This document shows, one piece after another, positions 43,986 through 62,857 of a stretch of DNA of 64,000 nucleotides. Under the pieces are notes generated by a model. The model was not told the DNA's origin. It saw nothing but the letters and a program-made list of their open reading frames with translations, and ran no database searches. The translations under genes were made by a program, and so were the position numbers. This stretch comes from Candidatus Thorarchaeota archaeon (GTDB lineage Archaea; Asgardarchaeota; Thorarchaeia; Thorarchaeales; Thorarchaeaceae). Within the stretch, counting starts at the first letter, position 1; each line of letters starts with the position of its first letter. The stretch is taken from contig JAGSHN010000005.1 of the NCBI GenBank assembly GCA_029855935.1, positions 142,396 to 206,395 on the forward strand, in the 5' to 3' direction.

Positions 43986-44101
43986 TGGCGCCGGGGGAGG
44001 GATTTGTCCCAAGTTGGCCACAGTCCAACTCGTTTGAACCCTCGCGTGCGGAGCACACCAACTTAGCAGGCTGGCTCCTTACCAGGCTAGGAAACCCCGG
44101 C
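43986..44101 (-). tRNA. tRNA-Ser (GCU) with T-loop intron
   Basis: Acceptor GCCGGGG/CCCCGGC, D-stem TCCT/AGGA, anticodon stem CCAGC/GTTGG enclosing CTGCTAA (GCU), a long serine-type variable arm (TGTGCTCCGCACGC), and T-stem GAGGG/CCCTC. The T-loop TTCAAAT is interrupted by about 30 nt (44003-44032, boundaries shiftable within an A-run). The intron holds an AGTTGG/CCAACT hairpin and ends GGGACAAA. CCA is encoded. It lies downstream of the SRP RNA gene, an arrangement known from some methanogens. Confidence 0.92.
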
Positions 44102-44125
44102 AGCGTGACAAAGGCCCTTGAATCC

Positions 44126-44141
44126 TCTCTTAAACATTGCC
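44126..44141 (-). promoter_or_regulatory. Promoter of tRNA-Ser
   Basis: The minus strand reads GGCAATGTTTAAGAGA about 30 bp before the tRNA 5' end. Confidence 0.5.
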
Positions 44142-44169
44142 GTAGTATCGCGGGTCAAAACTAGGTCTA

Positions 44170-44495
44170 TGAGGTGCAGCGGCCCCTTGGCCTCGAGCGT
44201 CCCTCGCCTTGGCGCGATCTCGCACCTTTCTCGGAGCGGCTACCTCCGAGGCTCCACCACTCCTCCTTAGGGCTGTTCCCGCCAGGGCCTGACCCGGTTC
44301 GGAGGTCTAAGCCAATCCCAGCAGTCCTACAACCGCCGTTATGGCCGTGGCAGACTTCGGAGACCGCCCGTCATGGTCTAGTGCGAGGGCGCACAAGGCT
44401 TGGGTTTCGCCCTCAGCCTCGGTTACTGGTCCCGGCTATTGCCATACCGGTCACAGGTCGCGGCAAACGACCCGACCCTACCCGCTGCAATAGGA
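44170..44495 (-). ncRNA. ffs: SRP RNA (7S RNA)
   Basis: RNA core of the signal recognition particle. The terminal helix pairs GCAGCGG at the 5' end (near 44488) with CCGCTGC at the 3' end (near 44176). The helix 8 / SRP54-binding element is at about 44270-44300: GGTCAGG-CCC-TGGC-GGG-AACAGCC, against the usual GGTCAGG...AGCAGCC with a GNAR loop. About 320 nt, right for an archaeal 7S RNA. Ends are approximate. Its own TATA lies just upstream and tRNA-Ser follows. Confidence 0.88.
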
Positions 44496-44510
44496 GGTTC
44501 GTGGACTTGT

Positions 44511-44525
44511 GCCTAAAAACGTTGT
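44511..44525 (-). promoter_or_regulatory. Promoter of the SRP RNA
   Basis: The minus strand reads GACAACGTTTTTAGGC, centred about 25-30 bp before the predicted RNA start near 44490. Confidence 0.55.
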
Positions 44526-44582
44526 CAAACAGTAGGATTCTTACTCTATGAATCGTACCCGCAACGAGAGCCCAGATAGGAA

Positions 44583-44777
44583 GTGATTCTGACGGAACAG
44601 GGAGATGGGTCTCTGAGGCGACTAGTACTGCTGATATTGTTGATTCTGCTGCTGACATCTCCAGGAACGCTCTTGGTCTTTCTCTCGCTGGGACCGATGG
44701 ACCCATTGCCCCTATTGATTATGTGGCCAGTCGGCATTGCGTTCGTTGCATGGTGGATACGAAAGACACGGAGGTAG
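44583..44777 (+). CDS. Small two-span membrane protein
   Basis: 64 residues, GTG start. Two hydrophobic helices (LVLLILLILLLTSPGTLLVFL and LLIMWPVGIAFVAWW) separated by GPMDPLP, ending in RKTRR. No family recognised. It sits between the SRP RNA promoter and the convergent S7 gene; it may be real because hydrophobicity and a positive C-terminus are well ordered, but the start and expression are unproven. Confidence 0.5.
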   Translation: MILTEQGDGSLRRLVLLILLILLLTSPGTLLVFLSLGPMDPLPLLIMWPVGIAFVAWWIRKTRR

Positions 44778-44804
44778 TATGAGCGAAGAGGGCAATCCTC
44801 TACT

Positions 44805-45467
44805 CTACCGTGCCGACCGCGCGACACGCTCACGCTCATCTTTCCTGGCAATTGCAAAACTCGCGGAATCGCCCTTGTAAGCCAAGAGCAACTCGTCCAC
44901 GATGCACTCCTCATACGACTTGGCACTGTTATGGGCATTGCGGGTCGCTCCAACAGCAAGATACCGTAATGCGAGATCAATTCTTCGCTGAGGGGCAACA
45001 TCTACCGAGCGGGGATAGGCCATTCCACCATAGGATATTCGTGTTGTTTCTTCTGCGGGGGCGGCATTCTCCACAGCTGTGACTAGCACCTGAATGGGGT
45101 TGAGGCCCGTTCGGTGATCAATCATCTCGAAGACACGTCGTAGGATACCTATCGCACGGGCCTTCTTGCCAGAACCGCGACCAGTGCGCGTCTTCTTCTC
45201 TTTCCGCGAACCGGCATTCATTAGCTTGTTGACGAATCGTTCAACAATTGGTACTTTCGACTTGTGGAAACGGTGGTTGGCATGCCGACCAGCTGTGTGT
45301 GGTATCAGTACGGGTTTGAGAGATATGTATCGCTGGAGGCCGATATCGCGCACTTGAACCTCAGAGGGGTTCCACTTGCCGAATAGCAGGAGATGAGGTG
45401 TTTCATGTTTTGCATCGTCAGTCGTTTCAGATGACGCAGCAGGAGTCGTATGTTCTTTGTCGGACAT
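44805..45467 (-). CDS. rps7: 30S ribosomal protein S7
   Basis: About 220 residues, uS7. An acidic low-complexity N-terminus (HTTPAASSETTDDAKHE) precedes the archaeal core: SLKPVLIPHTAGRHANHRF, IVERFVNKLM, NPIQVLVTAVENAAPAEETTRI and RNAHNSAKSYEECIVDELLLA. ATG 45467 chosen; GTG/ATG at 45479/45476 are possible. Follows S12 closely. Confidence 0.94.
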   Translation of the reverse strand: MSDKEHTTPAASSETTDDAKHETPHLLLFGKWNPSEVQVRDIGLQRYISLKPVLIPHTAGRHANHRFHKSKVPIVERFVNKLMNAGSRKEKKTRTGRGSGKKARAIGILRRVFEMIDHRTGLNPIQVLVTAVENAAPAEETTRISYGGMAYPRSVDVAPQRRIDLALRYLAVGATRNAHNSAKSYEECIVDELLLAYKGDSASFAIARKDERERVARSAR

Positions 45468-45481
45468 GACGTGCATCACCC

Positions 45482-45925
45482 TTATCTAATCGGTTTCTCG
45501 GCCTTGCCATAGATCAGCGACTCTAGACTGACACCATTGACCTTGAAGACGCGCCATCGAACACCAGGCAGATCACCGATAGCACCACCCATAGCGCCAC
45601 CAATCCCCTCGACTAACACGGTGTCATGCTCGTCGATGAACTTCAGGCCCCCATCACCGGGTACAAACGCCGTAATCTGCTTGCCGTTTTTTGAGAGCTG
45701 AACACGGACGCACTTGCGGATTGCAGAGTTGGGCTGTTTGCTCTCGACGCCCACTTTCTCCAGCACAATTCCCCTCGCCTGAGGAGCGCCCTCTAGTGGA
45801 TCGGTCTTCCGCTTCAGCTTGAGCATTCGTCTCTTGTAGCTCGACTTCTTCCAGCGAAACCTCTTTCGCTTGACTCGGAGGGGTCGCGCTGCAAACTCTC
45901 CTAGCGGACTCTTGGACCTGGTCAC
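45482..45925 (-). CDS. rps12: 30S ribosomal protein S12
   Basis: 147-residue uS12, decoding-centre protein: [23 protein letters not shown], the [13 protein letters not shown] motif, [15 protein letters not shown] and [19 protein letters not shown] start; an overlapping ATG meets a stop at once. Own promoter upstream at about 46000. Confidence 0.95.
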
Positions 45926-45991
45926 ATAATCTACCTCTGTCGAGATTTGTGGCTTAACGTATGGATGGTTCAGTGCTTCGCCCTGTCATAG

Positions 45992-46007
45992 ACTTAAAAG
46001 GATTATG
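45992..46007 (-). promoter_or_regulatory. Promoter of S12-S7
   Basis: The minus strand reads CATAATCCTTTTAAG, in the 3' flank of the nusA gene, about 70 bp before the S12 GTG. Confidence 0.55.
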
Positions 46008-46039
46008 AACATGACCCATCCTTGATGATAGAGGAGGGC

Positions 46040-46474
46040 TCACACTATTACCACATTGTCGAGGCCGAAATGGCGTTTGGCAAGTATTCGGGCCCGCGCT
46101 ACGTTCCGCCCATCACGGCCGATGGCTATTCCACGATCCTCTTCTTTGACCGTGACTTGGGCAATACGGGCTCCATTCCGACCACGGACTATCTTGACCT
46201 CTTCCACACGAGCAGGCGAGAGGGCACCCTTGACGAACTCCTCGGGCGTGTCGGCCATTTCCACAACATCAATGACCCTTCCGAAGGCCTCTGATGCATT
46301 TCGGACATTCGCACCACCACGACCTATTGCACGACCAAGCTGTTTCGGACGAACAACGAAAATCAGGCGGTTGGCCTCGTCGTCCCTGACAACATCCACC
46401 GCAGAGGCGCCAGTAATACGCTCAAATGTTGCTATGAGGGCCATGTCCTCCATAGAGAGTCGCACCCGAGGCAT
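46040..46474 (-). CDS. nusA: NusA-like KH-domain protein
   Basis: 144 residues of two KH domains: VRPKQLGRAIGRGGANVR (GxxG loop in KH1) and EDRGIAIGRDGRNVARARIL (KH2). Archaeal NusA lacks the bacterial N-terminal polymerase-binding and S1 domains; role in transcription termination or RNA binding is assumed from family. In its standard place between L30e and S12. Confidence 0.94.
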   Translation of the reverse strand: MPRVRLSMEDMALIATFERITGASAVDVVRDDEANRLIFVVRPKQLGRAIGRGGANVRNASEAFGRVIDVVEMADTPEEFVKGALSPARVEEVKIVRGRNGARIAQVTVKEEDRGIAIGRDGRNVARARILAKRHFGLDNVVIV

Positions 46475-46483
46475 ATGACCGCC

Positions 46484-46810
46484 TCACACCATCTCTAGAA
46501 TCTTAGAGTCACCAGGATCGATTATTGCAATGGCTGACACCATAAAGGGTTTCCCGATGACTTCGCCAAGATCCCAAGAGGTGCCATTGAATTTGTAGAC
46601 CCGGGTGTTGGTCATCTGTGCATACCGTTCGATGTCCTCGTAGTGCTCTCGGGGGCAATTAGAGGCGACAACTATTAGCTTGGCCGCTCCCTTTCTCAAC
46701 GCATCAATTGATGACCTTGCGCCAATTCGGCACTGGCCCGTACTTACTGCACTTGCAATCGGCTGATTCATGCTCAATTCTGATGACCTCACATCATAAT
46801 TATCATTCAT
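46484..46810 (-). CDS. rpl30e: 50S ribosomal protein L30e
   Basis: 108 residues (95 from ATG 46771), eL30/L7Ae-like fold: RIGARSSIDALRKGAAKLIVVASNCPRE, HYEDIERYAQMTNTRVYKFNGTSWDLG and GKPFMVSAIAIIDPGDS. Its own TATA precedes the ATG at 46810. Confidence 0.93.
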   Translation of the reverse strand: MNDNYDVRSSELSMNQPIASAVSTGQCRIGARSSIDALRKGAAKLIVVASNCPREHYEDIERYAQMTNTRVYKFNGTSWDLGEVIGKPFMVSAIAIIDPGDSKILEMV

Positions 46811-46842
46811 TCCACTGGATGGCCAACCCGACCAAACCAGTT

Positions 46843-46858
46843 ATGGTTTTAATGCTTG
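46843..46858 (-). promoter_or_regulatory. Promoter of L30e-nusA
   Basis: The minus strand reads GCAAGCATTAAAACC between the rpoA2 stop and the L30e start. Confidence 0.5.
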
Positions 46859-46903
46859 CGCCGCGACACATCTTGGGGAAACTGTTATCTATGAGTGTCA
46901 TCA

Positions 46904-48103
<1,200 letters not shown>

Positions 48104-48109
48104 TCACTC

Positions 48110-50767
48110 CTACTCAATCCTGCTCTTACCAAGAACTTTCTCGATGGCGATATCAATGTTGACGGCACGCCCGTGGTCAGATTTGCTCGGATCGACACCG
48201 TCATCCCCAAACTTGAACTGAACTATACGGCCGCTTGCAGTGCGAACCGTCTGATCCGTTTCCACCTTGAGGTCCTGAAGGGCCGTCATCAGTCGACGTT
48301 GCATGTAACCCGATGTGGATGTTCTCACAGCCGTGTCCACAAGACCCTCTCGCCCTCCAGCAGCGTGGAACCAGTACTCAATGGGATCGAGACCCCTCTT
48401 GTAGCTCGATGTGACGAATCCCCTAGCCCGGGCCCCCAGATCGCCCTTCTCAAAGTGGGGCAGGGTCCGGCCTTTGTAGCCGCGTTTGATTCTCTCTCCA
48501 CGAACAGCCTGCTGGCCAACGACTGCGGCCATCTGGGAGAGGTTGAGGCGTGAGCCTCGCGCACCAGTCTGGGCCATTATCACAGCAGAGTTCTCCAAGC
48601 CAAGATGCTCGCCAGCAATCTCGCCTGCCGAGTCACGGGCCTCTGCAAGTGTGGCCATAATCCGCTGTTCCAGAGTTTCAAGCAGAGTCTGGCCAGGGTT
48701 GGCATCGAGCTCACCACGCTTGTAAATCTCAATGAGCTGATTCACCTTCTCCTCGGCCTGCTCCAAGATGACCTTGATACGCTCTTCGGCCTCCCGTGGC
48801 AACGTGACATCATCGAGACCCATTGAAAAGCCGCGATCGGTGATTAGGCGGACGAGGAGTCGACCCACAGAGTCCATGAACTTCCGCGCGGCCGTTGGAC
48901 CCTTCTCCTTGATGATTCGGTGGAACAGAGAGTCGGGTTCACCTGCACCGAATGCCTTCTCGTCAACAACGCCGAACTCCAAGTTGCCGTCGCGGACCAC
49001 AACATAGGCATCGTATTCACAGTCCTCCCGCTTGCAGACCGCGCACTTGCGACATATGTTGGCCTTGAATGAGATGTTGATTCCCTCAGGTACAAACATG
49101 CTAAAGATCTGCTTGCCGGTCCACAAGCGCACCGGGGCCTTGATTGCAGGCTCCGGCAACTTTCCCTCGAACCCTGTGACGGCCATGAGCTGGTTCACGC
49201 GGTCTAGAGTGAACAGGCTCGATTTTCGGGTCAATAGAAAAGCGGCAGAGATATAGTCCTGAAGAGCGCCGATGATTGGTCCGCCGTACCTCGGGGACAG
49301 TATCTGCTCCTGAACACGCATCAGCACACGGGCCTCGGCACGAGCCTCTTCAGATTGAGGGACATGGAGGTTCATCTCATCGCCATCGAAGTCTGCGTTA
49401 TATGGTGGACAGACGTATAGGGATAATCTAAAGGTGCGGTATGGCATTACCCGGACCTCGTGCGCCATTATCGACATGCGGTGCAACGACGGCTGTCTGT
49501 TGAAGAGAACTATATCGCCATCTGCAAGGTGCCGCTCGACTATGAACCCTGGCTCGATGGTATTGGCGATGATTGTCCGGTCCTTGACAAAGCGCAGGTC
49601 GACTCGTCTTCCGTCAGTACGGATAAGGTAATTGGCACCTGGGTGTCTATCAGGCCCGCGGATGACGAGCTCTTTCATTTCCTCGATGTTCCACTCGGTG
49701 ACACGCTGCGGTATTGTCAGAATCTTTGCTATCTCCTCCGGGACGCCCACCTCGTTCATACTGAGATTGGGGTCTGGTGAGATGACAGTACGAGCGGAGA
49801 AGTCCACCCTCTTGCCGGAGAGGTTAGAGCGGAAGCGACCCTCCTTTCCCTTTAGACGCTGAGCCAAAGTGCGCAGTGCGCGGCCCGATCTGTGTCGTGC
49901 AGGGGGGATACCACTCACGCCGTTATCAAAGTACGTCGTCACGTGATACTGGAGCAGCTCCCATAGATCCTCTACAATGAGGGCTGGAGCGCCAGCGTCC
50001 AGGTTCTCTCGCAGACGTTGGTTTATTCGGATGATATCGATTAGTTTGTGGGAGAGATCATCCTCAGAGCGGACGCCGCTCTCAAGAGTGATTGACGGAC
50101 GGACTGTGACAGGAGGAACAGGGAGCACCGTGAGAATTGCCCATTCTAGACGGGCGGCGTTTGGATTGATTCCCATCAGGCGATAGTCGTCATCTGTGAT
50201 GTTCTCTAGGCGTTCACGAATGTCGATGGGTGTGAGCCTCACAGAACCCGCCTCACCAATCTCATAGATGGAGGTCGGTTTCTCAAGCTTCAGCTTCAGC
50301 TGTTCGGCGCCACAGTGAGGACACGTCTTGACCTTGGCAGCACGCTTGAGAATCTCCTTCGAAAGTACTGAAGTCCGCTCTCCTATCTCGGGATATCGTT
50401 TGAAGAGCTGTTTGAACTCCTCAATCTCATCGTCGCTCAGAAGAAGACGATTGCATTCACGACACGTGGCTCGGAGAACCTTATGTATGACTTTGGCATA
50501 TCCCTCATGCATCACTGGTCGAGCGAGCTCTATGTGACCGAAATGTCCGGGACAGTTGCCGACACGATTGCCACAGGTCTTACACCTTTGACCGGGATCA
50601 ATCACACCGAGACGCGGGTCCATTATTCCCGACTCTATGGGATAGCCATCTTCGTCATACGTGTCAGCGACGACTATCTGCGCAACCGACATCTTGCGGA
50701 TATCGTCGGGCGAGAGGAGCCCAAACTCAACTGCATCAATCTTTTTGATACTAAGTCCAGACAACAT
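48110..50767 (-). CDS. rpoA1: RNA polymerase subunit A' (RpoA1)
   Basis: 885 residues: clamp-core zinc site CKTCGNRVGNCPGHFGHIEL, CPHCG, LSGKRVDFSARTVISPDPNL, and the catalytic Mg-binding NADFDGDE at 457-464. The bridge-helix region is near LPHFEKGDLGARARGFV. No intein. It starts one base after the rpoB stop, showing tight coupling. Confidence 0.97.
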   Translation of the reverse strand: MLSGLSIKKIDAVEFGLLSPDDIRKMSVAQIVVADTYDEDGYPIESGIMDPRLGVIDPGQRCKTCGNRVGNCPGHFGHIELARPVMHEGYAKVIHKVLRATCRECNRLLLSDDEIEEFKQLFKRYPEIGERTSVLSKEILKRAAKVKTCPHCGAEQLKLKLEKPTSIYEIGEAGSVRLTPIDIRERLENITDDDYRLMGINPNAARLEWAILTVLPVPPVTVRPSITLESGVRSEDDLSHKLIDIIRINQRLRENLDAGAPALIVEDLWELLQYHVTTYFDNGVSGIPPARHRSGRALRTLAQRLKGKEGRFRSNLSGKRVDFSARTVISPDPNLSMNEVGVPEEIAKILTIPQRVTEWNIEEMKELVIRGPDRHPGANYLIRTDGRRVDLRFVKDRTIIANTIEPGFIVERHLADGDIVLFNRQPSLHRMSIMAHEVRVMPYRTFRLSLYVCPPYNADFDGDEMNLHVPQSEEARAEARVLMRVQEQILSPRYGGPIIGALQDYISAAFLLTRKSSLFTLDRVNQLMAVTGFEGKLPEPAIKAPVRLWTGKQIFSMFVPEGINISFKANICRKCAVCKREDCEYDAYVVVRDGNLEFGVVDEKAFGAGEPDSLFHRIIKEKGPTAARKFMDSVGRLLVRLITDRGFSMGLDDVTLPREAEERIKVILEQAEEKVNQLIEIYKRGELDANPGQTLLETLEQRIMATLAEARDSAGEIAGEHLGLENSAVIMAQTGARGSRLNLSQMAAVVGQQAVRGERIKRGYKGRTLPHFEKGDLGARARGFVTSSYKRGLDPIEYWFHAAGGREGLVDTAVRTSTSGYMQRRLMTALQDLKVETDQTVRTASGRIVQFKFGDDGVDPSKSDHGRAVNIDIAIEKVLGKSRIE

Positions 50768-50768
50768 C

Positions 50769-53700
50769 TCAAATCAACTCCTTCAGGCGTAGTCTGCAGG
50801 CAAGACCCAATGACATCATCTCTTGTATGAGAAGCTTGAATGCATAAGAAACGACAACACTGCTGATCTTGGCATTCGGGCCGCAGATAGGACAATAGTA
50901 GATGTCCTTGTTACGATCGTAAACACCGATGAGGCCACACTGCTCACAGACAAGCATATTACTCTTGTCCGACTCATCAAGGAGGCGGCCCTTGAGCAGG
51001 ATTGCGGCTCCGTGGCCTATCAGCACGTCGCGCTCCATCTCACCGAAGCGCAGACCTCCCTCTCGAGCGCGTCCCTCGGTCGGCTGCCTTGTAAGAATCT
51101 GGACCGGACCTCGTGCCCGTGCATGAATCTTGTCTGCCACCATATGATGGAGCTTCTGATAGAAGATTGCACCTATGAAGACTGTAGTCTGCAGCCGCTC
51201 TCCAGTGATGCCGGAGTACATGGTTTCGCGGCCATTGTACTGGAAACCATGCTCTTGGAGAATCTTGAACAGTTCCTCCTCTGTCACCCCTGAGAAGGGG
51301 GTTGCATCTTGTTGCTTGCCCTCAAGACAGGCTGCTTTTCCCGCAATCATCTCAAGAATCTGACCGATTGTCATTCTGCTTGGTATCGCATGCGGATTAA
51401 TAATGAGGTCTGGGACAACACCATCCTCTGTGAAGGGCACATCCTCCTGGGGAACGATGTAGCCGATCACACCCTTCTGACCATGCCGCGAGGCATATTT
51501 GTCGCCCAGTTCCGGAATCCGCAGGTCACGGACCTTGACCTTGACGAGCCTATTGCCATCTATGGTTTCCGTAAGTATCACACGGTCTACAACTCCCGAC
51601 TCGCCGTGCCGGACAGCAACGGACGTTTCCCTTCGGTTTGGAGATGTTATCTCGAACTCAGAGAACTCCTCAAGGAATCGCGGAGGAGATGTCCTGCCGA
51701 TGAGAACATCGCCTCCCTGTACCTCGACCTCCGTTTCAATTATGCCATCATCGCCGAGATTGCGGTAGGCCTCGGATGCTCTGTATCCTCGGACACTTCT
51801 GTCGGGGATTGTGAACTTGTCCTCTTGACCACCAGGGTACTTCCGCTCCTCACTCTCGTAGACACGGATGAACGTACTACGACCTAGGCCTCTCTCGATG
51901 GACGCCTTGTTCATGATGAGGGCGTCCTCAATATTGTAGCCTTCGAAGGAGAGAATTGCAACGATGAAGTTCTGCCCCGCGGGCCGCTCCTCATATCCGA
52001 TTGAGTCCATAGCCCGTGTCTTGACAAGTGGCACCTGTGGATAGTGAAAGAAGTGTGAGCGTGTGTCAGCGCGATAGGCGAAATTGGAGGCGGGGACGCC
52101 CACAGACTGCTTTGCCATTCCTGCCATGTACACGTTCCGTGGAGACTGATTGTGTTCGGGGAATGGGATGAGAGCCGCAGAGATTCCCAAGATGGTCGAG
52201 GGGACGATCTCAAGGTGAGTTGTTTTCGGCCCGATCTCCTCTGGATACATAGCGATGAGGGTGTTCTCTTCCTCCTCTGCATCTAGAAACTCCACAATTC
52301 CATTCCGAACTAGGTCCTGGAAGCCCCACTCACCCTCCTCAATCATTCTGATGTGTTCGTCCGTCAGCCGACTCTTACCGTTCTCAACGACAATAAGAGG
52401 CCTGCGCACACGACCAGCATCACAATTGACCTGAACCTCATGTGTGTCCTCATAATAGGCAATGTTGACCTCATAGTCAATCTCACCCGCACGGCGTTTC
52501 TGCCGGATCGTCTTCACGAGGACCTGGGGCGCCGGATGTACGCCGACCAGCCGGCCGTTCAGAAAGACGTCGGCCCACTTACTGCTTCGCTTGCCCCGGC
52601 GCTGCTCGATAGGTTCGACCTCGGCCCTGAAGAGAGCTCGTTCTACGGCTTCCTCATCGGTGCCAACAGAGATGTATGCCATCATTGCTAGGTTCTTGAC
52701 AAGCCCGCAGTTCGGTCCCTCCGGGGTTTCATTGGGGCAGATCTTGCCCCAGTGTGTGGCATGCAGGTCACGTGCCTCGAAGTGGGGCTGCGACCGTGAC
52801 AGTGGCGAAACCACACGGCGCAGGTGTGACAACGAGGAGATGTAGTTGGTCCTATCGAGGAGCTGAGAAACACCTGCTTTTCCGCCCACCCAGTTTCCCG
52901 TTGCGAGGGCATGTTTCAGACGCTGTGTGATGACATCGGCACGGACCGCAGTACGAATGTTCGGTTTTCGTCCGCGCACAGCTGTACGCTCCAACTGATA
53001 CTTGATGTCACGTGTAAGGGAGTATAGTGCCACGCGGAACAGCGACATCAGAAGATCGCCGCTCAGCTTGAGCCGCTTGTTCGCATAGTGGTCCTTGTCG
53101 TCAGGCTGGCGCTTCCCCAGCACGAGCTCCAATAGACGTTCGACCATCTGACCTAGGTAGTAGGCCTTCTTGATACGATGCTCTGGCTCAGTGCCTATGT
53201 GGGGCAGAAGATATCTATCGAGAACCTTCTCGGCGCGTGCCAGACGGTATTCCTTGGTCTGGCCCACGGCCACACGTTTCCCTATGTAGTCCAGCGCATT
53301 CTCACGGGTAGAACCCTTCTCCGCATCCGGACCAGCATTTATGGGCGCGGACTGCTCAATGGTGACAATCAGTTCGGTCTGAATCTCCTCATCATCTGAG
53401 ATTACCTCGACTATCTCGCGGTCCGATTCCAGCCCCAGAGCCTTCATCAGAATTGCAAGCGGAATCTTGCCGGGGACGGAGGGGAAGGACACACGAAGCT
53501 CACCTGTGCGTTTACGCTCAATCGTCACCGGAGCACGGAACCCTCTCGATGTGGAGAAGACCTTTGCCACGTGTGTGTATCCAGAGGACTTGCTCGCCTC
53601 CTCAATGAGGATTCTGTTTGGCGCCAAATCCTCTTGTGTGACAAGAACCCGCTCAGATCCATTGATTATGAAGTATCCACCAGGATCACGGGGGTCCTCT

Positions 53701-54298: not shown

Positions 54299-54375
54299 TG
54301 GCGGGCTCGGCGGGATTTGAACCCGCGGCCATCAGGTTAAAAGCCTGCTGCGCTACCTGGCTGCGCCACGAGCCC
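54299..54375 (-). tRNA. tRNA-Lys (UUU), intron-free
   Basis: Acceptor GGGCTCG/CGAGCCC, D-stem GCGC/GCGC, loop CTTTTAA (UUU) in stem GCAGG/CCTGA with one terminal mismatch, T-loop TTCAAAT in stem GCGGG/CCCGC. CCA is encoded. It stands 95 bp upstream of rpoB, same strand. Confidence 0.95.
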
Positions 54376-54686: not shown

Positions 54687-54701
54687 CGACAACTTTAATA
54701 G
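54687..54701 (+). promoter_or_regulatory. Promoter of tRNA-Asp
   Basis: CCGACAACTTTAATAG lies about 30 bp before the tRNA. Confidence 0.5.
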
Positions 54702-54727
54702 AAAATCGATTGGACGACATCCGCGAT

Positions 54728-54835
54728 GCCCCTGTAGTGTAGTCCGGCCCACGTTTCGAGAATCTCGAAACGTACGGAATAGCATATGTGACTGTCACTC
54801 ACATGACCCGGGTTCAAATCCCGGCGGGGGCGCCA
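54728..54835 (+). tRNA. tRNA-Asp (GUC) with D-loop intron
   Basis: Acceptor GCCCCTG/CGGGGGC, D-stem GTGT/GCAT (with G-U pairs), anticodon stem TGTGA/TCACA enclosing CTGTCAC (GUC), T-arm CCGGG-TTCAAAT-CCCGG, encoded CCA. A 30-nt insert splits the D-loop next to the conserved GG (about 54748-54777; the repeated CGG makes the junction ambiguous). Without it the D-loop is AGTCCGGAATA. The insert contains ACGTTTCGAGA and TCTCGAAACGT, a near-perfect 11-bp hairpin. Confidence 0.92.
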
Positions 54836-54943
54836 TCTTCCTTTTGCCACAGATTCTGGGACATTACTGACGATCTCACGGTGTACGAGCCATCATCGTT
54901 AAGTGCGGACTCGGTCGAGTGATTGTTCTCAAGGGTGGTTCGA

Positions 54944-55942
54944 ATGGTGAGCAAGTTTCTCAAGCAATGCCACGAGGGTCTGCATTCGCAGGTGAAGGGA
55001 CTAACGAAGACATTACAAGGATTGTCGGGAGACGAGAGAGAGTCTGTTATTGGTAGGCGATTGGTCGTGCTCACTGGTTGTGGAGACTCGCTGGCCGTCG
55101 CATCGTATGGAGTGTGGGCACTATTGCAAGAGGGGGTCTGTGCAATCTCAGTGTCACCACCGGACCTCCAGAGGCTGCCTCTTGACAACAGTTGCACAGT
55201 CATAGGAGTGAGTGCTTCTGGAAGAAGCATATCCACAATGAGAGCAATTGAATACGCCAAACGGTGTGGCGCTACAACGGTGGCACTGACCGACAATGAA
55301 CAAGGAAGAATCAATGAGACGGTCGATAGTCTGTGGCTCACGAACTCAGGAGTCGAAACGTATGACATTATTCCCACGGCCCCGACTACATGCGGAATGG
55401 CATTCATCCTAGGAGTGGTGGGGCAGATCAATCCAGCTAAGTATGGCGATGACTTGCATGTCCTTCAACGATTGATTGACGATATCTGGGAGTGGGCCGA
55501 ACTAGAGGGACTCAGCATCTCACAAATGATTGACGTCAATCGGAGAGTCACGTTTGTTGCGGACGGCCCATGCTATGTGTCGGCTGAACTTGGAGTGATG
55601 AAGATTAGTGAATCTTCCCTGACATACGCCACGAGTGTGCCTACAGAGGAGTTCCAACACTATGGCGGCCTCTCGACTAAGAGGAATGATTTGGTCATCT
55701 TTGTGACCGAGAAACGATTGACAGCAGCTGATGCTAGATTCTTGAACATACTGAGAGATGTGTTGGGCTTGAGGACATACCATCTGCACCCACCCGAAAC
55801 AATCAGTTTCACCACATCCATGGCCCGAGTGATACCCAATGTGATGGCGATTCAGATTGGGACGTACTACACGCTTGTTCGGGTGGATCCCGAGAGAAAG
55901 TGGTTCAGACTCCCCCATGCTAGGGCCTTCAAGATATACTGA
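54944..55942 (+). CDS. SIS-domain sugar isomerase-like protein
   Basis: 332 residues, two SIS halves. RLVVLTGCGDSLAVASYGVWALL, VIGVSASGRSISTMRAIEYAKRCGATTVALTDN (typical SxSG...S phosphosugar loop) and VTFVADGPCYVSAELGVMKISE in the second half with EEFQHYGG. This is the layout of GlmS isomerase-like and related proteins without the glutaminase domain; substrate unknown. ATG 54944 is chosen; a TTG at 54923 is possible. Confidence 0.8.
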   Translation: MVSKFLKQCHEGLHSQVKGLTKTLQGLSGDERESVIGRRLVVLTGCGDSLAVASYGVWALLQEGVCAISVSPPDLQRLPLDNSCTVIGVSASGRSISTMRAIEYAKRCGATTVALTDNEQGRINETVDSLWLTNSGVETYDIIPTAPTTCGMAFILGVVGQINPAKYGDDLHVLQRLIDDIWEWAELEGLSISQMIDVNRRVTFVADGPCYVSAELGVMKISESSLTYATSVPTEEFQHYGGLSTKRNDLVIFVTEKRLTAADARFLNILRDVLGLRTYHLHPPETISFTTSMARVIPNVMAIQIGTYYTLVRVDPERKWFRLPHARAFKIY

Positions 55943-56006
55943 TGCAAACAACCCAATTGGAAAGACATAACTCGCCTCAGGAGGAGTACCGCATGAGTGA
56001 GAGATA

Positions 56007-56960
56007 GTGCTCGCGGAGGTCATAGATGCTCTGCAGACAGGCCAGATTGACGCCGCAGTCAAGATTGTCACAGACCGAGGAGAAGAATTTCTTGCTGAAA
56101 CCGAGTCTATCTTCCGACAGCGCGGGGAGGATGTACGACATACGAAGGAACGTATTCTGAGTCTGGGCGACCATCTCCCTGACGACATTTCGGCGGCTGT
56201 CATTCGGATGGCCATTGCAGATGATGATGAGATAATACGTGTAAGAGGCCTCCAAGCAGCATACAGAAGACGGGTGAATCTGTTGAAGGAAGACATCACC
56301 CGCATTCTTCGCGATCAGCATGAGAACTTCGAGGCCCGGAAGTGGGCCATCCATATCCTTGCCACTACAGAGGGGGAATGTTGCGGGGACTTGATTCGCG
56401 CCCTTGCTAGGGACCGAACAGAAACCCCTGAGATGAGAAGAGAGGCCATCTTCGCGTTGACGAGCATCGCTGGTGAGGGGAGCATAGGCACGCTCTGTGT
56501 CCTGCTGGGGGACGCACTTCCTGAGATACGGCAGGCGGCTGCATGGGCACTTGGGAGGATATCCTCTCCTCGGTCAACAGACTGCCTTCTGGCCGCGATA
56601 GAAGACGAGGACTCGGAGGTGAGGGACTGGGCAATTCGTGCTCTTAGAGATATGGACGACACCCGCGCCCTGCAGGGTCTTGCCGATGCTCTGTCAAAAT
56701 CAGAACCTGAGGAACAGGTCAAGCTGATCCGGCTCTTGGCAGAGAAACGCTCGGAGATAATACATCGGGCAATTACCGAGGCGCTAGGCTCACCGCACGC
56801 CGTCGTGCGGCGGGAGGCAGCGTGGGCACTGAGTGTTACTCCATACCCTCCTTCGGCTGTGGCCCTCCGCGAACTCCTTTCCGATGATGACGAGGAGGTT
56901 CGGAAGTACGCCATGAGTGCACTCAAGAGGCTTGGTGAGAGCCACGGCGCCTTGGACTAG
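56007..56960 (+). CDS. HEAT-repeat protein
   Basis: 317 residues. From about residue 60 it is built of roughly 30-residue helical repeats with the PBS-lyase/HEAT pattern (VRRxAAWALG-like: EIRQAAAWALGRI, EVRDWAIRALRDM, VVRREAAWALSV, EVRKYAMSALKRL). Such solenoids are usually scaffolds. GTG start with a weak upstream purine run. No catalytic domain, partner or membrane segment is visible; function unknown. Confidence 0.82.
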   Translation: MLAEVIDALQTGQIDAAVKIVTDRGEEFLAETESIFRQRGEDVRHTKERILSLGDHLPDDISAAVIRMAIADDDEIIRVRGLQAAYRRRVNLLKEDITRILRDQHENFEARKWAIHILATTEGECCGDLIRALARDRTETPEMRREAIFALTSIAGEGSIGTLCVLLGDALPEIRQAAAWALGRISSPRSTDCLLAAIEDEDSEVRDWAIRALRDMDDTRALQGLADALSKSEPEEQVKLIRLLAEKRSEIIHRAITEALGSPHAVVRREAAWALSVTPYPPSAVALRELLSDDDEEVRKYAMSALKRLGESHGALD

Positions 56961-56970
56961 GTGCGGCTGC

Positions 56971-57726
56971 CTACATCATCCCTTGGTATAGGCCACCGTC
57001 GACAAGCAGTAGTGCCCCATGAACATAGCTGGCAAGGGGGCTCAACAGAAATGCACATACTGCACCAAATTCCTCGGGATTGCCCATCCTTCCAAGCGGG
57101 ATGGAGGAAAGTATCTCACTCTCTCTCTCGGGCGTTCGTGAGAGAAGCTGTCTAACACGGTCCGTACGAATCCAGCCTGGACACACGGCATTGACTCTGA
57201 TACCGTCAGTGGCCAGTTCGCGGGACAGTGTACGCATCATTCCCACAACAGCTGGCCGAAGTGCGTTGGACAGTAGTAGGTTCTCAATAGGTTGCTTGAC
57301 CGAGATTGACGTGCTGTAAAGGATTGATGGTGCATCCGACTTCTTTAGCAGAGGCAGTGCCTCCCGTGTCAGCCGTACTGCGCTCATCACTGTCAAATTG
57401 AATGACCTCTGCCAGTCATTGTCAGAGAAAGAAACAAAGGGGCCGGGAGGTGGTCCTCCCGCATTGACGAACACACCATCAAGTCCACCCCATTGTTTTC
57501 TGATGTCACTCATTAGGTGGACTATGTCGTCAGGTCGGGTTAAGTCGGCGACAACATACCGGCCCCGACTGCCCAACGTCTTGACTGCTTGGGCGAGCGC
57601 GCTTTCATCTCTACTGCAGATTGTGACATCGGCGCCCTCTGCAACCAAGGCTTTTGCTACACTGAATCCCAGTCCCTTTGAAGCTGCGGTCACCAAGTAC
57701 CGTCGGTCCTTCAGTAAGAGATTCAT
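56971..57726 (-). CDS. SDR-family protein lacking the YxxxK pair
   Basis: 251 residues, Rossmann fold: VTAASKGLGFSVAKAL (cofactor loop), ADVTICSRDE, VADLTRPDD, FVNAGGPPPGPF and RVNAVCPGWIRTDR. The serine is in YSTSISV, but where YxxxK is expected the sequence is LLLSNALRPAVVGMM, with no Tyr or Lys. This matches a subgroup of FabG-like SDRs with altered active site, so chemistry may differ. It converges on the HEAT-repeat gene. Confidence 0.85.
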   Translation of the reverse strand: MNLLLKDRRYLVTAASKGLGFSVAKALVAEGADVTICSRDESALAQAVKTLGSRGRYVVADLTRPDDIVHLMSDIRKQWGGLDGVFVNAGGPPPGPFVSFSDNDWQRSFNLTVMSAVRLTREALPLLKKSDAPSILYSTSISVKQPIENLLLSNALRPAVVGMMRTLSRELATDGIRVNAVCPGWIRTDRVRQLLSRTPERESEILSSIPLGRMGNPEEFGAVCAFLLSPLASYVHGALLLVDGGLYQGMM

Positions 57727-57924
57727 TTACCAGTCACCGTTAGAGCTTGGCTTGCGGGTAGACTCCCCGCATAGGTCCATTTCAAGCTCGACCTTGCAGA
57801 GTGAGTCGTATTAAGTGCTGTTGTGAAGAGAAAGACTACCGTGCAATTCCACATACGAGATTGCCTTACAATAACTCCTCGTAACGCACACCGTTTGACC
57901 GCCGAAATCGCGACGGATCTGTAC

Positions 57925-58212
57925 TCACCCAGCGCGGGGCGAAACCTCGGCCTTGCTCCTAGCTCCCAGGCGAACCTCTAGATGCAGAAATGCAGAGCTC
58001 AGCCGGTGGAACCGCTCCTGCGCCTTAAAGTCTGCTATGCCCAATGAATTGAGGACACGCTCGACTCTGGAGGGGGTCAACCTCTGGCTCTCTGTGGCGC
58101 TAAAGGCAATCACCAGCTTCGGGTCGTCAGGGTCAGGAAGGGAGAACACTGTGTGGCAGGCAATGCCTCGTCGTTTGAGCTCTGTCTTTATCTGAGACTC
58201 CAGTTGACGCAT
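57925..58212 (-). CDS. Small protein of unknown function
   Basis: About 95 residues from ATG 58212 (104 from 58239). Predicted alpha/beta: MRQLESQIKTELKRRGIACHTVFSL, LVIAFSA, TPSRVERVLNSLGI, RLSSAFLHLEVRLGAR. A TATA-like GTTTAGTAG lies about 40 bp upstream. No family recognised. The 198-bp stretch 57727-57924 after it shows no other gene. Confidence 0.5.
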   Translation of the reverse strand: MRQLESQIKTELKRRGIACHTVFSLPDPDDPKLVIAFSATESQRLTPSRVERVLNSLGIADFKAQERFHRLSSAFLHLEVRLGARSKAEVSPRAG

Positions 58213-58365
58213 GGCACTCTCCTCATCCAAAGGCTGCACATCAGACTACTAAACACCAAGTAAGAGCACAGTAATACCTGCTGAGGGACAGGAGGACCAT
58301 CCCATTAGCGAGCTGTGAATACCATCGGTACCCTCTTAGTCCTGTTACCACGGGGGATGCTATGG

Positions 58366-58381
58366 AAGGCCTTAAGAATCG
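58366..58381 (+). promoter_or_regulatory. Promoter of tRNA-Arg (UCG)
   Basis: GGAAGGCCTTAAGAATC lies about 28 bp before the tRNA. Confidence 0.5.
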
Positions 58382-58402
58382 AGCAGCTCTCAAGGAACAT
58401 GT

Positions 58403-58513
58403 GGGCGCGTAGTCTAGTCTGGATAGGGCGCCAGCCTTCGGAGTTGGATGTCCCAGGTTCGAAATCCCATCACTTCGGGTTGTGATGGGACGGGAATCCT
58501 GGCGCGCCCGCCA
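58403..58513 (+). tRNA. tRNA-Arg (UCG) with T-loop intron
   Basis: Acceptor GGGCGCG/CGCGCCC, D-stem GTCT/GGGC, anticodon stem CCAGC/GTTGG enclosing CTTCGGA (UCG), T-stem CCAGG/CCTGG, encoded CCA. The T-loop TTCGAAT is interrupted by 33 nt (58463-58495 or one base later). The insert contains CCCATCAC and GTGATGGG, an 8-bp hairpin. The anticodon loop has no intron. Confidence 0.92.
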
Positions 58514-58729
58514 TCACATCCCCAATTTTTCACTCCACACCTTGATGAAATACTCCAGAGAACGATCATACGTTCGTTCGGCATCTTCGGGGAAGAGGCA
58601 ACCCGGGAGCTCACGATGGCGCCAGTGATAGGCAAGACAGTCGCAGCAGTATCCCTTCCTAGAGCACCCTGGATACGAACACGTACAACGCATTTTGTTA
58701 CGGTCAACACTACATTCTCGTCCGGTCAT
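58514..58729 (-). CDS. Cysteine-rich small protein (DUF6485-like)
   Basis: 71 residues, or 59 from the second ATG. Core CTCSYPGCSRKGYCCDCLAYH followed by RELPGCLFPEDAERTYDRS resembles short prokaryotic cysteine-rich proteins of the DUF6485 type; six or more cysteines and two histidines suggest metal binding. ATG 58729 fits a strong TATA (GATATATAAG near 58765) about 35 bp upstream. Its stop begins one base after the tRNA-Arg CCA. Confidence 0.75.
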   Translation of the reverse strand: MTGRECSVDRNKMRCTCSYPGCSRKGYCCDCLAYHWRHRELPGCLFPEDAERTYDRSLEYFIKVWSEKLGM

Positions 58730-58955
58730 CGGAACCCCCTGACAGTCTTTTTCGGGTGTCTTATATATCTGATAGTATCGTGGCGATGAACTCACAGCCG
58801 ATTGACACTGTAGTTACACTTGCACTAGAACGGCCCAGTCACTTGGGAATCGTGTCAAGAAGCACTGAGGTGTCAGCTTGGTTGCGAAGAAGATGCCATC
58901 TATCGTACAAGAACCATCCGTGGCTAGTTGCGACAAGAGATTTCGCAAGAAGGAG

Positions 58956-59062
58956 TGGTCGGGACGGGGAGATTTGCTCCCGTCCGAGGCTTGCTCGGAT
59001 GGTTTGAACTCCCAACCGACGGATCTACAGTCCGCTGCTCTGCCAGATTGAGCTACGTCCCG
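58956..59062 (-). tRNA. tRNA-Tyr (GUA) with T-loop intron
   Basis: Acceptor CGGGACG/CGTCCCG, D-stem GCTC/GAGC, anticodon stem GCGGA/TCCGT enclosing CTGTAGA (GUA), T-stem GGGAG/CTCCC, encoded CCA. TTCAAAT is interrupted by 30 nt (58973-59002, or one base up). The intron contains TCCGAG/CTCGGA, a 6-bp hairpin, and ends GGGAGCAAA, nearly repeating the exon GGGAGTTCAAA. The usual anticodon-loop intron of archaeal tRNA-Tyr is absent. Confidence 0.92.
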
Positions 59063-59110
59063 ACCTTTGGAATCAGCACCGTAGCCGATTCGAGAGAGTA
59101 CCTAGTCTGA

Positions 59111-59127
59111 CATAATAAAAGGATTAC
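59111..59127 (-). promoter_or_regulatory. Promoter of tRNA-Tyr
   Basis: The minus strand reads GTAATCCTTTTATTATG, about 50 bp before the tRNA. Confidence 0.55.
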
Positions 59128-59143
59128 TCCGCAGACAGTCGGA

Positions 59144-60175
59144 CTACCCCTCAAACATACTACGCATCTTATCTTCATTCGGGGCCTCAATCACGCCCCG
59201 GTCCGTTATTATGGCTGTCACAAGCTCAGGGGGTGTGATGTCGAAGGCGGGATTGTAGACCTTGGCTGTCGGCACTGTGATGTACTGGTTATTGATAATC
59301 CTCACTTCATCGGGGGACCGTTCCTCAATGACAACATCCTCAACATCTGTCACCATATCAATGGTCGAAGTTGGCGCGGCCACATAGAACGGAATATTGT
59401 GATGGTGGGCTGTAATTGCCATCGTGTATGTCCCAATCTTGTTGATGACATGGCCAGTTCGAAGTATCCTGTCAGCGCCAACAACACAGCAGTCGATTCG
59501 GCCCTGGTGGAACACCGTGCCAATCATTCCATCAGTTATCAATGTCGTATCTATCCCATCCTCCATGAACTCGAACACTGTCAGCCTTGCGCCTTGCTGA
59601 CGGGGGCGGGTTTCAGCAGCGTATACCTTGATGTCACCATATCGCTCTTGCGCGACGCGGACCACTGCTCCTACCGTTCCAAGATGCACTGTCGCCAATG
59701 AGCCAGCATTACATATAGTCTGAATCGTGAAACCAGGCCTAATGAATTGTAACGCGTTCTCACCAATTTGACGACACATCCGAACGTCCTCTTCTGCAAT
59801 CTCCTTAGCCTCTTCAATCAGCCGCTGGACGATTGACTGAACACTGCCTTCAGTGTTTCTCGCGACACGGAGCATGCGGGAAGTAGCCCATGTCAGGTTG
59901 ACAGCTGTCGGGCGAGTGTTCAAAGTGCGAGCCGCGGTTTCGAGATCGGCAAGAAGGCGCTCTTTGGTGGACGCCTCACTCTCTATTGCAGCAAGAGCCA
60001 TTCCCATAGCCGCAGCTGCACCAATTGCAGGGGCGCCTCGAATCTCCATCACCTTGATTGCCTGAGCAATCCGTTTGTGACTTGATGTTTCGATAAACTC
60101 GACTGCAAGGGGAAGCTTCGTCTGGTCAACGAGCTTGACCGTGTTGTTCTCTTGCCATTCAATTGTGCGGAACAT
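59144..60175 (-). CDS. mtnA: S-methyl-5-thioribose-1-phosphate isomerase
   Basis: Aldose-ketose isomerase of methionine salvage, eIF2B-alpha-like fold, 343 residues. EIRGAPAIGAAAAMGMAL, CNAGSLATVHLGT (catalytic Cys), YAAETRPRQQGARLT, VGADRILRTG (catalytic Asp) and YNPAFDITPPELVTAIITD are MtnA hallmarks that distinguish it from ribose-1,5-bisphosphate isomerase. Overlaps the hydrogenase protease gene by 17 bp. Confidence 0.92.
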   Translation of the reverse strand: MFRTIEWQENNTVKLVDQTKLPLAVEFIETSSHKRIAQAIKVMEIRGAPAIGAAAAMGMALAAIESEASTKERLLADLETAARTLNTRPTAVNLTWATSRMLRVARNTEGSVQSIVQRLIEEAKEIAEEDVRMCRQIGENALQFIRPGFTIQTICNAGSLATVHLGTVGAVVRVAQERYGDIKVYAAETRPRQQGARLTVFEFMEDGIDTTLITDGMIGTVFHQGRIDCCVVGADRILRTGHVINKIGTYTMAITAHHHNIPFYVAAPTSTIDMVTDVEDVVIEERSPDEVRIINNQYITVPTAKVYNPAFDITPPELVTAIITDRGVIEAPNEDKMRSMFEG

Positions 60176-60677
60176 CGGACTGACCTCGCAGATGCAATTC
60201 TATGACCTGCTTGAGGATGCTAATAATCTTCCGAGCTGTTTCCTCAATCACGGGAGTTAGGCCTTCACCAAAGTCGATATCTTGCGGTTGCACTCCCAGT
60301 AAGATAGTCTGGGCACCAGTTTCCTGCTCGAGATACATCATCAAGAAGGACAGGGGGAGATGATGAGTGCTAATCGCAATCCCACCAATCCGGTCCTTGG
60401 TTATGAGATCAACCGCTCCCGGGGACCTGCGCATATCTGCGGCATCAATGAGAATGACCCTCTGCGCCCCAAACTCGGCAATGGGCCGAGCAAATGCCTC
60501 AGGAACAGAGCCAACATTTTCAATCATCAAATTCGAATCATTGATGGAGAGAGAACGGACTATATACGGACCAAGACCATCATCTCTTCTCAGGTCGTTC
60601 CCAATGCCCAAGATGGCAATCCGCTGAGCGCCTCGGAGGAACTCGCGGAGCTTCCCAGCTAGAACATCTACATCCAT
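60159..60677 (-). CDS. hycI: Hydrogenase maturation protease (HycI/HyaD family)
   Basis: 172 residues: AILGIGNDLRRDDGLGPYI (nickel-sensing Asp region), NVGSVPEAFARPI, VILIDAADMRRSPG and the conserved STHHLPLSFLM with the metal-binding His. This endopeptidase clips the C-terminus of a [NiFe]-hydrogenase large subunit after nickel insertion, so a hydrogenase should be encoded elsewhere. Its end overlaps mtnA, an unexpected operon partner. Confidence 0.9.
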   Translation of the reverse strand: MDVDVLAGKLREFLRGAQRIAILGIGNDLRRDDGLGPYIVRSLSINDSNLMIENVGSVPEAFARPIAEFGAQRVILIDAADMRRSPGAVDLITKDRIGGIAISTHHLPLSFLMMYLEQETGAQTILLGVQPQDIDFGEGLTPVIEETARKIISILKQVIELHLRGQSDVPHN

Positions 60678-60802
60678 AACAGGACTCGATGCGCGAGTAA
60701 GTCGGCTATAGTTCTTTTGAAATGACTGTCCACTACGAAGGGTTTTTCACACTTTGATATCGAGTTGGGCAAGAGCACTTGGATGTGAGATGTGACCACC
60801 CG

Positions 60803-61414
60803 ATGAGCGATGATGGGGACGGACCGTCCAATAGGGCAGATAGCATATCCGAAACCGATGAAGTGACCGTAGCGCCAGTTGATGTCAGACTGATTGGAAA
60901 CAAGGCGTATGCCGAGAGAGAGAATGCCGAGAAGATATCGCAAGGGGGACTATATGGCACACTGCTCGAAGATGGACGACTGGAGATAGACCTAGTTGAG
61001 TTATTGCTGCTGATGGAGAGAGGAAGAGTACATGTATATGACGAGAGGGGATCCCAATTAGAAACGAGGGATATTGTGCAGCGGGGCTATTCGAACAATC
61101 CTAGTCTATGGATTCACTATCTCGTCTATCGGGATCTCCGTAGCAGAGGATACGCGGTGCGTCAGGGACTAGGGGGACGAATTGGATTTCGGGTCTATGC
61201 ACGGGGAGAAAGGCCAAGGACAGCAAGTGCAAATCAGCTGGTGTACGTCTTGAGGGACGGTGAGCCAATATCTCTTCAGGATCTTGACTCTGTGACTCGA
61301 ATCGCATCAGAATCGCGAAAGAAGCTAGTCTTTGCGCTCATTGACCAGAATGGAGAGGTGAACTACTACAGGGTGGCACAGATAGAGTTGATGAACAAGG
61401 AGAGCGCGTCATAA
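60803..61414 (+). CDS. endA: tRNA splicing endonuclease subunit, catalytic His replaced
   Basis: 203 residues with an EndA fold. The C-terminal nuclease domain has NPSLWIHYLVYRDLRSRGYAV, GFRVYARG with catalytic Tyr132, and RKKLVFALID with Lys173, spaced 41 residues apart exactly as Tyr115 and Lys156 in the Methanocaldococcus enzyme. The residue ten after Tyr, where His is expected, is Ser142, and no His follows. This looks like a structural subunit of a heteromeric endonuclease, or an enzyme with changed chemistry. ATG 60803 avoids a TTG at 60779. The ATPase gene overlaps its stop (TAATG). Confidence 0.85.
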   Translation: MSDDGDGPSNRADSISETDEVTVAPVDVRLIGNKAYAERENAEKISQGGLYGTLLEDGRLEIDLVELLLLMERGRVHVYDERGSQLETRDIVQRGYSNNPSLWIHYLVYRDLRSRGYAVRQGLGGRIGFRVYARGERPRTASANQLVYVLRDGEPISLQDLDSVTRIASESRKKLVFALIDQNGEVNYYRVAQIELMNKESAS

Positions 61415-62673
61415 TGGCAGATTGGTATGATGAAGAGATCGAGCTGCTTGAGTCGTATTTTGACGAACACACTATGAGTGTTCATCTAATTGAGAACACG
61501 CCCCCACGTGCCAAAAGAGGCTCGCCGGGAGACTGGACTCTGGTTGATCTATCGGATGAGATTCTGTCCTATGAGGATCTCGACGCAATGGCCAATGCGA
61601 TAATGGAGAGCGCAAGGAATGACAGATTCTCGTTTATAGAGATACAGGAGGAGGGAGCAGTAGTCGTTCAGCTGCGGAACCTCAGGATAGCAATTGCTTC
61701 ACCACCGTTCGCCGATAAATATGAGATATCCGCCATTAGACCCATCACAAAGCTCTCGATGGAGGACTATGATTTGAGCCCTAAGCTGATGAAACGGCTT
61801 GAAACAAGAGCAGAGGGAATTCTGGTATCTGGTGCTCCCGGCTCAGGCAAGAGCACGTTCGCGGCAGCGCTTGCCGAGTTCTACAGTCAGCAGGGCAATG
61901 TTGTCAAGACACTGGAACAGCCAAGAGACCTCCAAGTGAGTGAAGACATAGTCCAGTATTCACCGCTCGACGGGAGTATGGAAAAGGCAGCGGATGTACT
62001 ACTCCTAGTACGACCAGATTATGTAGTCTATGATGAGCTTCGAAAAGACTCAGACTTTCAGGCCTATGCCGACCTTAGGTCTGCAGGCGTCGGCATGGTG
62101 GGTGTCGTCCATGCAGGATCCGCCATTGATGCTATCCAGCGTCTGATACATGGCGGGAGAGTGGAGCTCGGGCAGGTGCCCAGCACTGTCGATACGGTCA
62201 TCCATATAGAGGCAGGCCGAGTGGCGAAGGTGTCATCTCTCTCCTTGAAGGTGAAGCTCCCAACCGGAATGAGTAGCTCCCAGAGAGATCTTGCACGACC
62301 AGTGGTGGAGGTTCGTGACTTTGAGGAGGGGATACTCGAATACGAGATGTTCACTTTTGGCGGTGAGCGCGTTGTGATGCCAGTCAGAGGGGAGGTGACA
62401 ACGTATCGTCGGGCTGGCCGTACGCCTGTGAAACGGGGTGTGCCAGGTGAGTCCGTTCCTATCTCCGTTAGCTACTCAAAGAAGAAGGTAACAATCTATG
62501 CTGGGCGCAAATATGCTAGACAGCGCCTTGATATATACGCAGACAACACCTATCTCTTCACGACCGTGATAGGACGGAATGGGGAGAGTTCAATCAGAAT
62601 CAAGACCAAACAGGGTAAGGCCCTCGTTGACGCAATTGAGGAGGGCGCAGTGATAACTGCTAAGATAGCCTAG
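61414..62673 (+). CDS. PilT/PINA-type ATPase with KH domain, no PIN domain
   Basis: 419 residues. After an N-terminal 120-residue region comes Walker A SGAPGSGKST, LEQPRDLQ, Walker B DYVVYDELRK and VGVVHAGSAIDAIQRLI, the core of archaeal PilT-like ATPases. The C-terminal region ends in a KH-like module (IRIKTKQGKALVDAIEEG). Related archaeal PINA proteins carry an N-terminal PIN nuclease, which is missing here. Coupled to the splicing endonuclease by TAATG, suggesting work on RNA; inference. Confidence 0.8.
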   Translation: MADWYDEEIELLESYFDEHTMSVHLIENTPPRAKRGSPGDWTLVDLSDEILSYEDLDAMANAIMESARNDRFSFIEIQEEGAVVVQLRNLRIAIASPPFADKYEISAIRPITKLSMEDYDLSPKLMKRLETRAEGILVSGAPGSGKSTFAAALAEFYSQQGNVVKTLEQPRDLQVSEDIVQYSPLDGSMEKAADVLLLVRPDYVVYDELRKDSDFQAYADLRSAGVGMVGVVHAGSAIDAIQRLIHGGRVELGQVPSTVDTVIHIEAGRVAKVSSLSLKVKLPTGMSSSQRDLARPVVEVRDFEEGILEYEMFTFGGERVVMPVRGEVTTYRRAGRTPVKRGVPGESVPISVSYSKKKVTIYAGRKYARQRLDIYADNTYLFTTVIGRNGESSIRIKTKQGKALVDAIEEGAVITAKIA

Positions 62674-62687
62674 CTGTACAAAACCTT

Positions 62688-62703
62688 TAACAACACAGGA
62701 CAG
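62688..62703 (+). promoter_or_regulatory. Promoter of tRNA-Arg (CCU)
   Basis: CAAAACCTTTAACAAC lies about 25-30 bp before the tRNA and is close to consensus for this window. Confidence 0.55.
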
Positions 62704-62722
62704 GTTCACGAAATCAGACAGC

Positions 62723-62857
62723 GGGCCCGTGGCCTAGCCTGGACCTCTGGCGGAATCGTCGAAGGAGGTAGATAGGGCACCAGCCTCCTATCCGTCATCC
62801 CCATAGTGACGGAGAGAGAGTTGGTAATCGCCGGTTCGAATCCGGCCGGGCCCGCCA
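62723..62857 (+). tRNA. tRNA-Arg (CCU) with two introns
   Basis: Acceptor GGGCCCG/CGGGCCC, D-stem GCCT/GGGC, anticodon stem CCAGC/GTTGG, T-arm GCCGG-TTCGAAT-CCGGC, encoded CCA. Intron 1 (29 nt, about 62744-62772) splits the D-loop after GGA; it contains CCTC/GAGG and GGCG/CGTC pairing. Intron 2 (28 nt, 62791-62818) is at the classical site after position 37 of the loop CTCCTAA (anticodon CCU), with a TCCGTCA/TGACGGA hairpin. Confidence 0.92.

Follow-up and report, generated by a model that had tools for sequence, protein, structure and literature searches.

Non-canonical tRNA introns were reportedly described in Thermoproteales by Sugahara in 2008 and Fujishima in 2010. Intron positions 20/21, 53/54, 59/60 and others are known from Crenarchaeota (PMC4090602), and the published mean number of introns per tRNA gene is 0.21 in archaea and 0.84 in Thermoproteales (PMC8450103). 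The reviewed Thermoproteales introns resemble the Thorarchaeal ones reported here in having bulge-helix-bulge motifs, in lying in the D-loop, the T-loop, the variable region or the canonical site, and in being gained rapidly; however, their hosts are thermophiles of a different phylum in which similar introns recur in different tRNA genes, a sign of transposition (PMC4090602), whereas Thorarchaeota give no more than a hint of it. The Caldiarchaeum tRNA-Thr polymorphism is alike in that intron presence differs between close relatives, but it is tied to a mobile element there (PMC3293823). Among Asgard archaea, the complete genomes of Atabeyarchaeia and Freyarchaeia have introns in 92-95% of their tRNA genes (PMC11291895, Nat Commun 2024); as in Thorarchaeota, these introns are many and often non-canonical, with several per gene, whereas the proportion of interrupted genes is lower in the Thorarchaeal genome studied here (20/44). 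A sequence-only reading of the present locus had supposed that no such case was described for an Asgard-like archaeon, and this claim of novelty fails because of that 2024 report. Our literature search, outside which most subscription papers and the supplements of PMC11291895 lay, found nothing on tRNA introns of Thorarchaeota, their turnover or the Asgard endonuclease loop described below. The kind of intron is one already known from archaea, seen now in a further lineage; what is new is the Thorarchaeal case with its intron-free sister genes, the turnover rate, and the finding of that loop in alpha subunits of Asgard archaea.

The window, that is, the whole 64,000-nt stretch of DNA that was analysed, corresponds to contig C14:142396-206395 of a Thorarchaeota genome (G000) assembled as 2.97 Mb in 32 contigs and 97% complete. 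RpoB identity is 96-97% with Candidatus Thorarchaeota isolate B65_G9; with about thirty other Thorarchaeota it is 85-90%. A cloverleaf parser permitting introns anywhere was built for the purpose. In a scan of 769 of the 854 tiles of the window, the minus-strand end being covered by targeted parsing only, all tRNA genes scored at least 59.7, compared with 39.6 for the top background match. Seven tRNA genes were found, of which five are interrupted and only Pro-CGG and Lys-UUU are not:

28278..28354, plus strand: tRNA-Pro(CGG), uninterrupted control (ARAGORN, Rfam and parser); outside the interval of the sequence-only reading
43986..44101, minus strand: tRNA-Ser(GCU), interrupted (parser); intron-free orthologues in three same-genus genomes
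44004..44033, minus strand: tRNA-Ser(GCU) intron, 30 nt, T-loop 58/59; helix GUUC(53-56):GGAC, bulges AA|A and AA|A
54299..54375, minus strand: tRNA-Lys(UUU), uninterrupted here (ARAGORN, Rfam and parser); syntenic orthologues have introns at several positions
54728..54835, plus strand: tRNA-Asp(GUC), interrupted (parser)
54749..54780, plus strand: tRNA-Asp(GUC) intron, 30-32 nt, D-loop at about 20/21; helix UCCG:CGGA, relaxed bulge-helix-bulge
58403..58513, plus strand: tRNA-Arg(UCG), interrupted (parser)
58464..58496, plus strand: tRNA-Arg(UCG) intron, 33 nt, T-loop 59/60; strict bulge-helix-bulge, helix UUCG:CGGG; T-loop introns also in two same-genus genomes
58956..59062, minus strand: tRNA-Tyr(GUA), interrupted (parser); intron-free orthologues in two same-genus genomes
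58974..59003, minus strand: tRNA-Tyr(GUA) intron, 30 nt, T-loop 58/59; helix GUUC:GAGC
60779..61414, plus strand: EndA beta, non-catalytic tRNA-splicing endonuclease subunit (PF01974, 74 bits); best solved relatives are tRNA-splicing endonucleases
62723..62857, plus strand: tRNA-Arg(CCU), two introns (ARAGORN with introns allowed, and parser)
62743..62771, plus strand: tRNA-Arg(CCU) intron, 29 nt, D-loop 19/20; helix GCCU:AGGU
62791..62818, plus strand: tRNA-Arg(CCU) canonical intron, 28 nt, 37/38 (bulge-helix-bulge test)

The parser confirmed the proposal of the sequence-only reading that five of seven tRNA genes carry D-loop or T-loop introns. The T-loop inserts of 30-33 nt that it described in Ser-GCU, Arg-UCG and Tyr-GUA can now be placed at 58/59 (Ser and Tyr) and 59/60 (Arg-UCG), and its D-loop inserts in Asp-GUC (30 nt) and Arg-CCU (29 nt) become 30-32 nt and 29 nt at 19/20, respectively; the Asp-GUC intron is 32 nt long by the bulge-helix-bulge rule and 30 nt if intron-free relatives set the D-loop length. 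The classical 37/38 intron assigned to Arg-CCU alone of the five genes was also found, removal of the inserts restored a full cloverleaf with encoded CCA in all five genes when parsed, and the hairpin predicted inside every insert was borne out. An archaeal SRP RNA gene (Rfam; window 44177-44487, minus strand) directly adjoins tRNA-Ser(GCU). Genomes of the genus retain the cluster at 58403-62857, in which Arg-UCG, Tyr and Arg-CCU lie together with the gene for EndA beta, apart from a rearrangement of Arg-UCG and Tyr.

The intron junctions were compared with the strict archaeal geometry, which comprises a 4-bp central helix, 3-nt bulges and a cut after the second bulge nucleotide. The bulge-helix-bulge fold that the sequence-only reading had named as the check on its claim was present at every one of the six introns, in relaxed form in Asp, and each intron outperformed its shuffled versions (p 0.003-0.017). 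The central helix has four pairs at five of the six introns and three of four pairs at Arg-CCU 37/38. When 101 distinct introns from G000 and related genomes were pooled, the strict motif (here a four-pair central helix plus no fewer than three of the four inner pairs) occurred in 51% of the introns versus 13% of the shuffles; the pooled D-loop introns gave a weaker signal (48% at p<=0.05), in part owing to their imprecise placement by the parser. When folded to minimum free energy, the Ser and Tyr precursors displayed the intron hairpin but lacked the full bulge-helix-bulge, and the Arg-UCG precursor had part of the tRNA body refolded. The geometry would account for the likeness of T-loop 59/60 to anticodon-loop 37/38, each being a seven-base loop on a five-pair stem.

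Across G000, Rfam plus the parser yielded 44 distinct standard tRNA genes and one selenocysteine tRNA gene. Introns were found in 20 of the 44 genes, amounting by hand count to 23 introns (14 of them non-canonical), or about 0.52 per gene, to be set against the published means of 0.21 and 0.84 given above; because D-loop and variable-region introns are placed approximately, the related counts (Met L014 and Asn L035) are less sure. A search for missing tRNAs recovered Pro-GGG with a 37/38 intron and did not find Val-CAC or Leu-UAA. Intron-free copies of the five interrupted genes, which the sequence-only reading had named as evidence against its claim, were looked for in this 97%-complete genome and none was found. 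The similarity among introns of different tRNAs, examined as a test of transposition, was weak (top pair Trp versus the CAU tRNA, p ~0.04), and mobility is therefore not claimed. The introns of tRNA-Trp and the CAU tRNA (L025 and L026 in G000; L202 in another genus) have in common the motif GAAGACACGGGGTCA or close variants of it, with an exact match of 15 nt across distinct tRNAs from distinct genera; a shared guide RNA and intron transposition are both possibilities. Two other observations concern the tRNA set: the sole tRNA-Cys (L029, G000:C25:20567-20638) carries G55, lacks the GG in an unusual D-loop, and may be a divergent gene or come from a contaminant contig, and two contigs bear the same tRNA-Ala(GGC) sequence at an end (C14:67-140 and C21:12-85), probably because the assembly broke within a single gene common to both. 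As foreseen from the sequence, standard finders missed or truncated these genes: ARAGORN detected 2/7 window tRNA genes at default and 3/7 with introns allowed, while Rfam at gathering score detected 3/7, namely Pro, Lys and, from the interrupted five, Tyr alone and in part.

The same genes were compared in related Thorarchaeota. Ser-GCU is intron-free in all three same-genus genomes and matches the predicted spliced product at 98-99% over 86/86 nt, and Tyr-GUA is intron-free in both same-genus genomes where it was found, with matches of 96% and 99% over 77/77 nt. Given these matches at 96-99%, the Ser-GCU and Tyr-GUA introns are probably recent gains within the genus. The T-loop intron of Arg-UCG is kept in two same-genus genomes (three including G000), among which the exons are 99-100% identical and the introns have drifted to 67-76%; five other genera have an intron-free Arg-UCG matching the predicted spliced product at 86-95%. 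For Arg-CCU, both introns occur in B65_G9 and the 37/38 intron alone in a second same-genus genome and, judging from match length, probably in the third. One other genus has an intron-free Arg-CCU with a 95% match to the predicted spliced product.

Thorarchaeal tRNA introns turn over quickly. Near rpoB, Lys-UUU and Asp-GUC have either no intron or introns at 37/38, in the D-loop, in the variable region, at 53/54 or at 59/60, and the RpoB tree requires at least 29 changes of intron presence at eight sites in these two tRNA genes (Lys 4+2+3+4; Asp 6+7+2+1), based on intron states assigned by eye in up to 31 Thorarchaeota. For example, tRNA-Asp has a 37/38 intron in the closest relative versus the D-loop intron in G000. 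Moreover, in the tRNA-Lys near rpoB a precise 37/38 intron of 16 nt separates L057 and L059 from L099, although these genomes are near-identical, which shows that introns can come or go rapidly and leave no scar.

Two EndA genes are present in G000, one for a catalytic alpha subunit on contig C5 (L046) and one for the non-catalytic beta subunit in the window. The alpha subunit has the catalytic Tyr, His and Lys, and the catalytic His is not conserved in beta. The Thorarchaeal alpha aligns almost end to end with the (alpha-beta)2 EndA of Aeropyrum pernix (PDB 3p1z, 3ajv; PMC6379350), with an E-value of 3.8e-47 and no gap over the Crenarchaea-specific loop, K44 included; this loop lysine was reported to give crenarchaeal EndA its broad specificity (PMC6379350), and it is common to both proteins, as are the catalytic residues. 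Unlike in the Aeropyrum case, the bearers here are Asgard archaea: loop and lysine, with the motif GIRKPK or slight variations of it, occur in all Asgard alpha subunits recovered (L046, L128-L149). The loop is thus not confined to Crenarchaea, and the name 'Crenarchaea-specific loop' no longer fits. Both alpha and beta EndA were found in most Asgard relatives searched; in a few, mostly less complete genomes, one alone was found. G000 also encodes RtcB (595 bits).

We conclude that the inserts are almost certainly protein-spliced archaeal tRNA introns, with splicing and subunit assembly predicted from the genes. They interrupt tRNA genes, their removal restores the tRNA, and their junctions form bulge-helix-bulge motifs, in one case relaxed; an RtcB-type ligase is encoded, as are endonuclease alpha and beta subunits with the conserved loop lysine in alpha, which are predicted to assemble into an (alpha-beta)2 enzyme that, like the epsilon-2 type, would accept non-canonical sites. 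The interrupted gene would be transcribed whole and the intron would pair with the neighbouring exon into a bulge-helix-bulge, re-creating the 37/38 geometry with a helix drawn from 53-57 in the T-loop case and from 15-18 in the D-loop case. EndA, as an (alpha-beta)2 heterotetramer, would then cleave each bulge behind its second nucleotide, its broad specificity being ascribed to the alpha-subunit loop with the conserved lysine, and RtcB would ligate the exons. The view that the inserts are tRNA introns in an Asgard-like archaeon accordingly stands: the genome is that of a Thorarchaeote, the folds are present and no intron-free copies were found. Other kinds of explanation were rejected. The catalytic core of a group I intron takes up at least about 200 nt; the inserts measure 28-33 nt, and Rfam matches at gathering score were tRNA and SRP RNA only. 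Split or permuted tRNAs do not fit, both halves lying in order within 107-135 bp, nor do pseudogenes, the exons being intact and conserved.

The introns of Ser-GCU and Tyr-GUA might instead be old ones that were repeatedly and precisely lost elsewhere. Precise scarless change does occur, as the 16 nt Lys intron of L057, L059 and L099 attests, and the Arg-UCG T-loop introns are common to three same-genus genomes; nevertheless, the Ser and Tyr T-loop introns are absent from all same-genus genomes in which the gene was found and from most other genera, and intron sites vary from genus to genus, which makes repeated loss rather unlikely. It is very improbable that the inserts are retained, either in tRNAs with expanded D- or T-loops or in decayed genes: the genes are single-copy for needed anticodons, their exons are intact and 98-100% conserved in the genus while the Arg-UCG introns drift, an insertion in the T-loop would destroy its contact with the D-loop, and the genome encodes the splicing enzymes. 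The assembly in 32 contigs would speak for an artefact or chimeric insertion, but this reading is extremely improbable and is refuted by independently assembled Thorarchaeota genomes that have introns of the same architecture in the same genes and positions.

Taking the inserts as spliced introns, these results extend intron-rich tRNA genes to Thorarchaeota, where ordinary finders make for unreliable tRNA annotation, and with same-genus genomes that have these genes free of introns, intron gain can be put to a direct test. We tentatively suggest, while regarding it as open to considerable doubt, that Thorarchaeal introns are actively gained and enter tRNA genes wherever a bulge-helix-bulge is possible, and that what allows this is an endonuclease of broad specificity, ancestral to Asgard archaea as a whole and hence plausibly to the eukaryotic tRNA-splicing enzyme. 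The loop in the catalytic subunits recovered from Asgard relatives bears on the origin of that eukaryotic enzyme.
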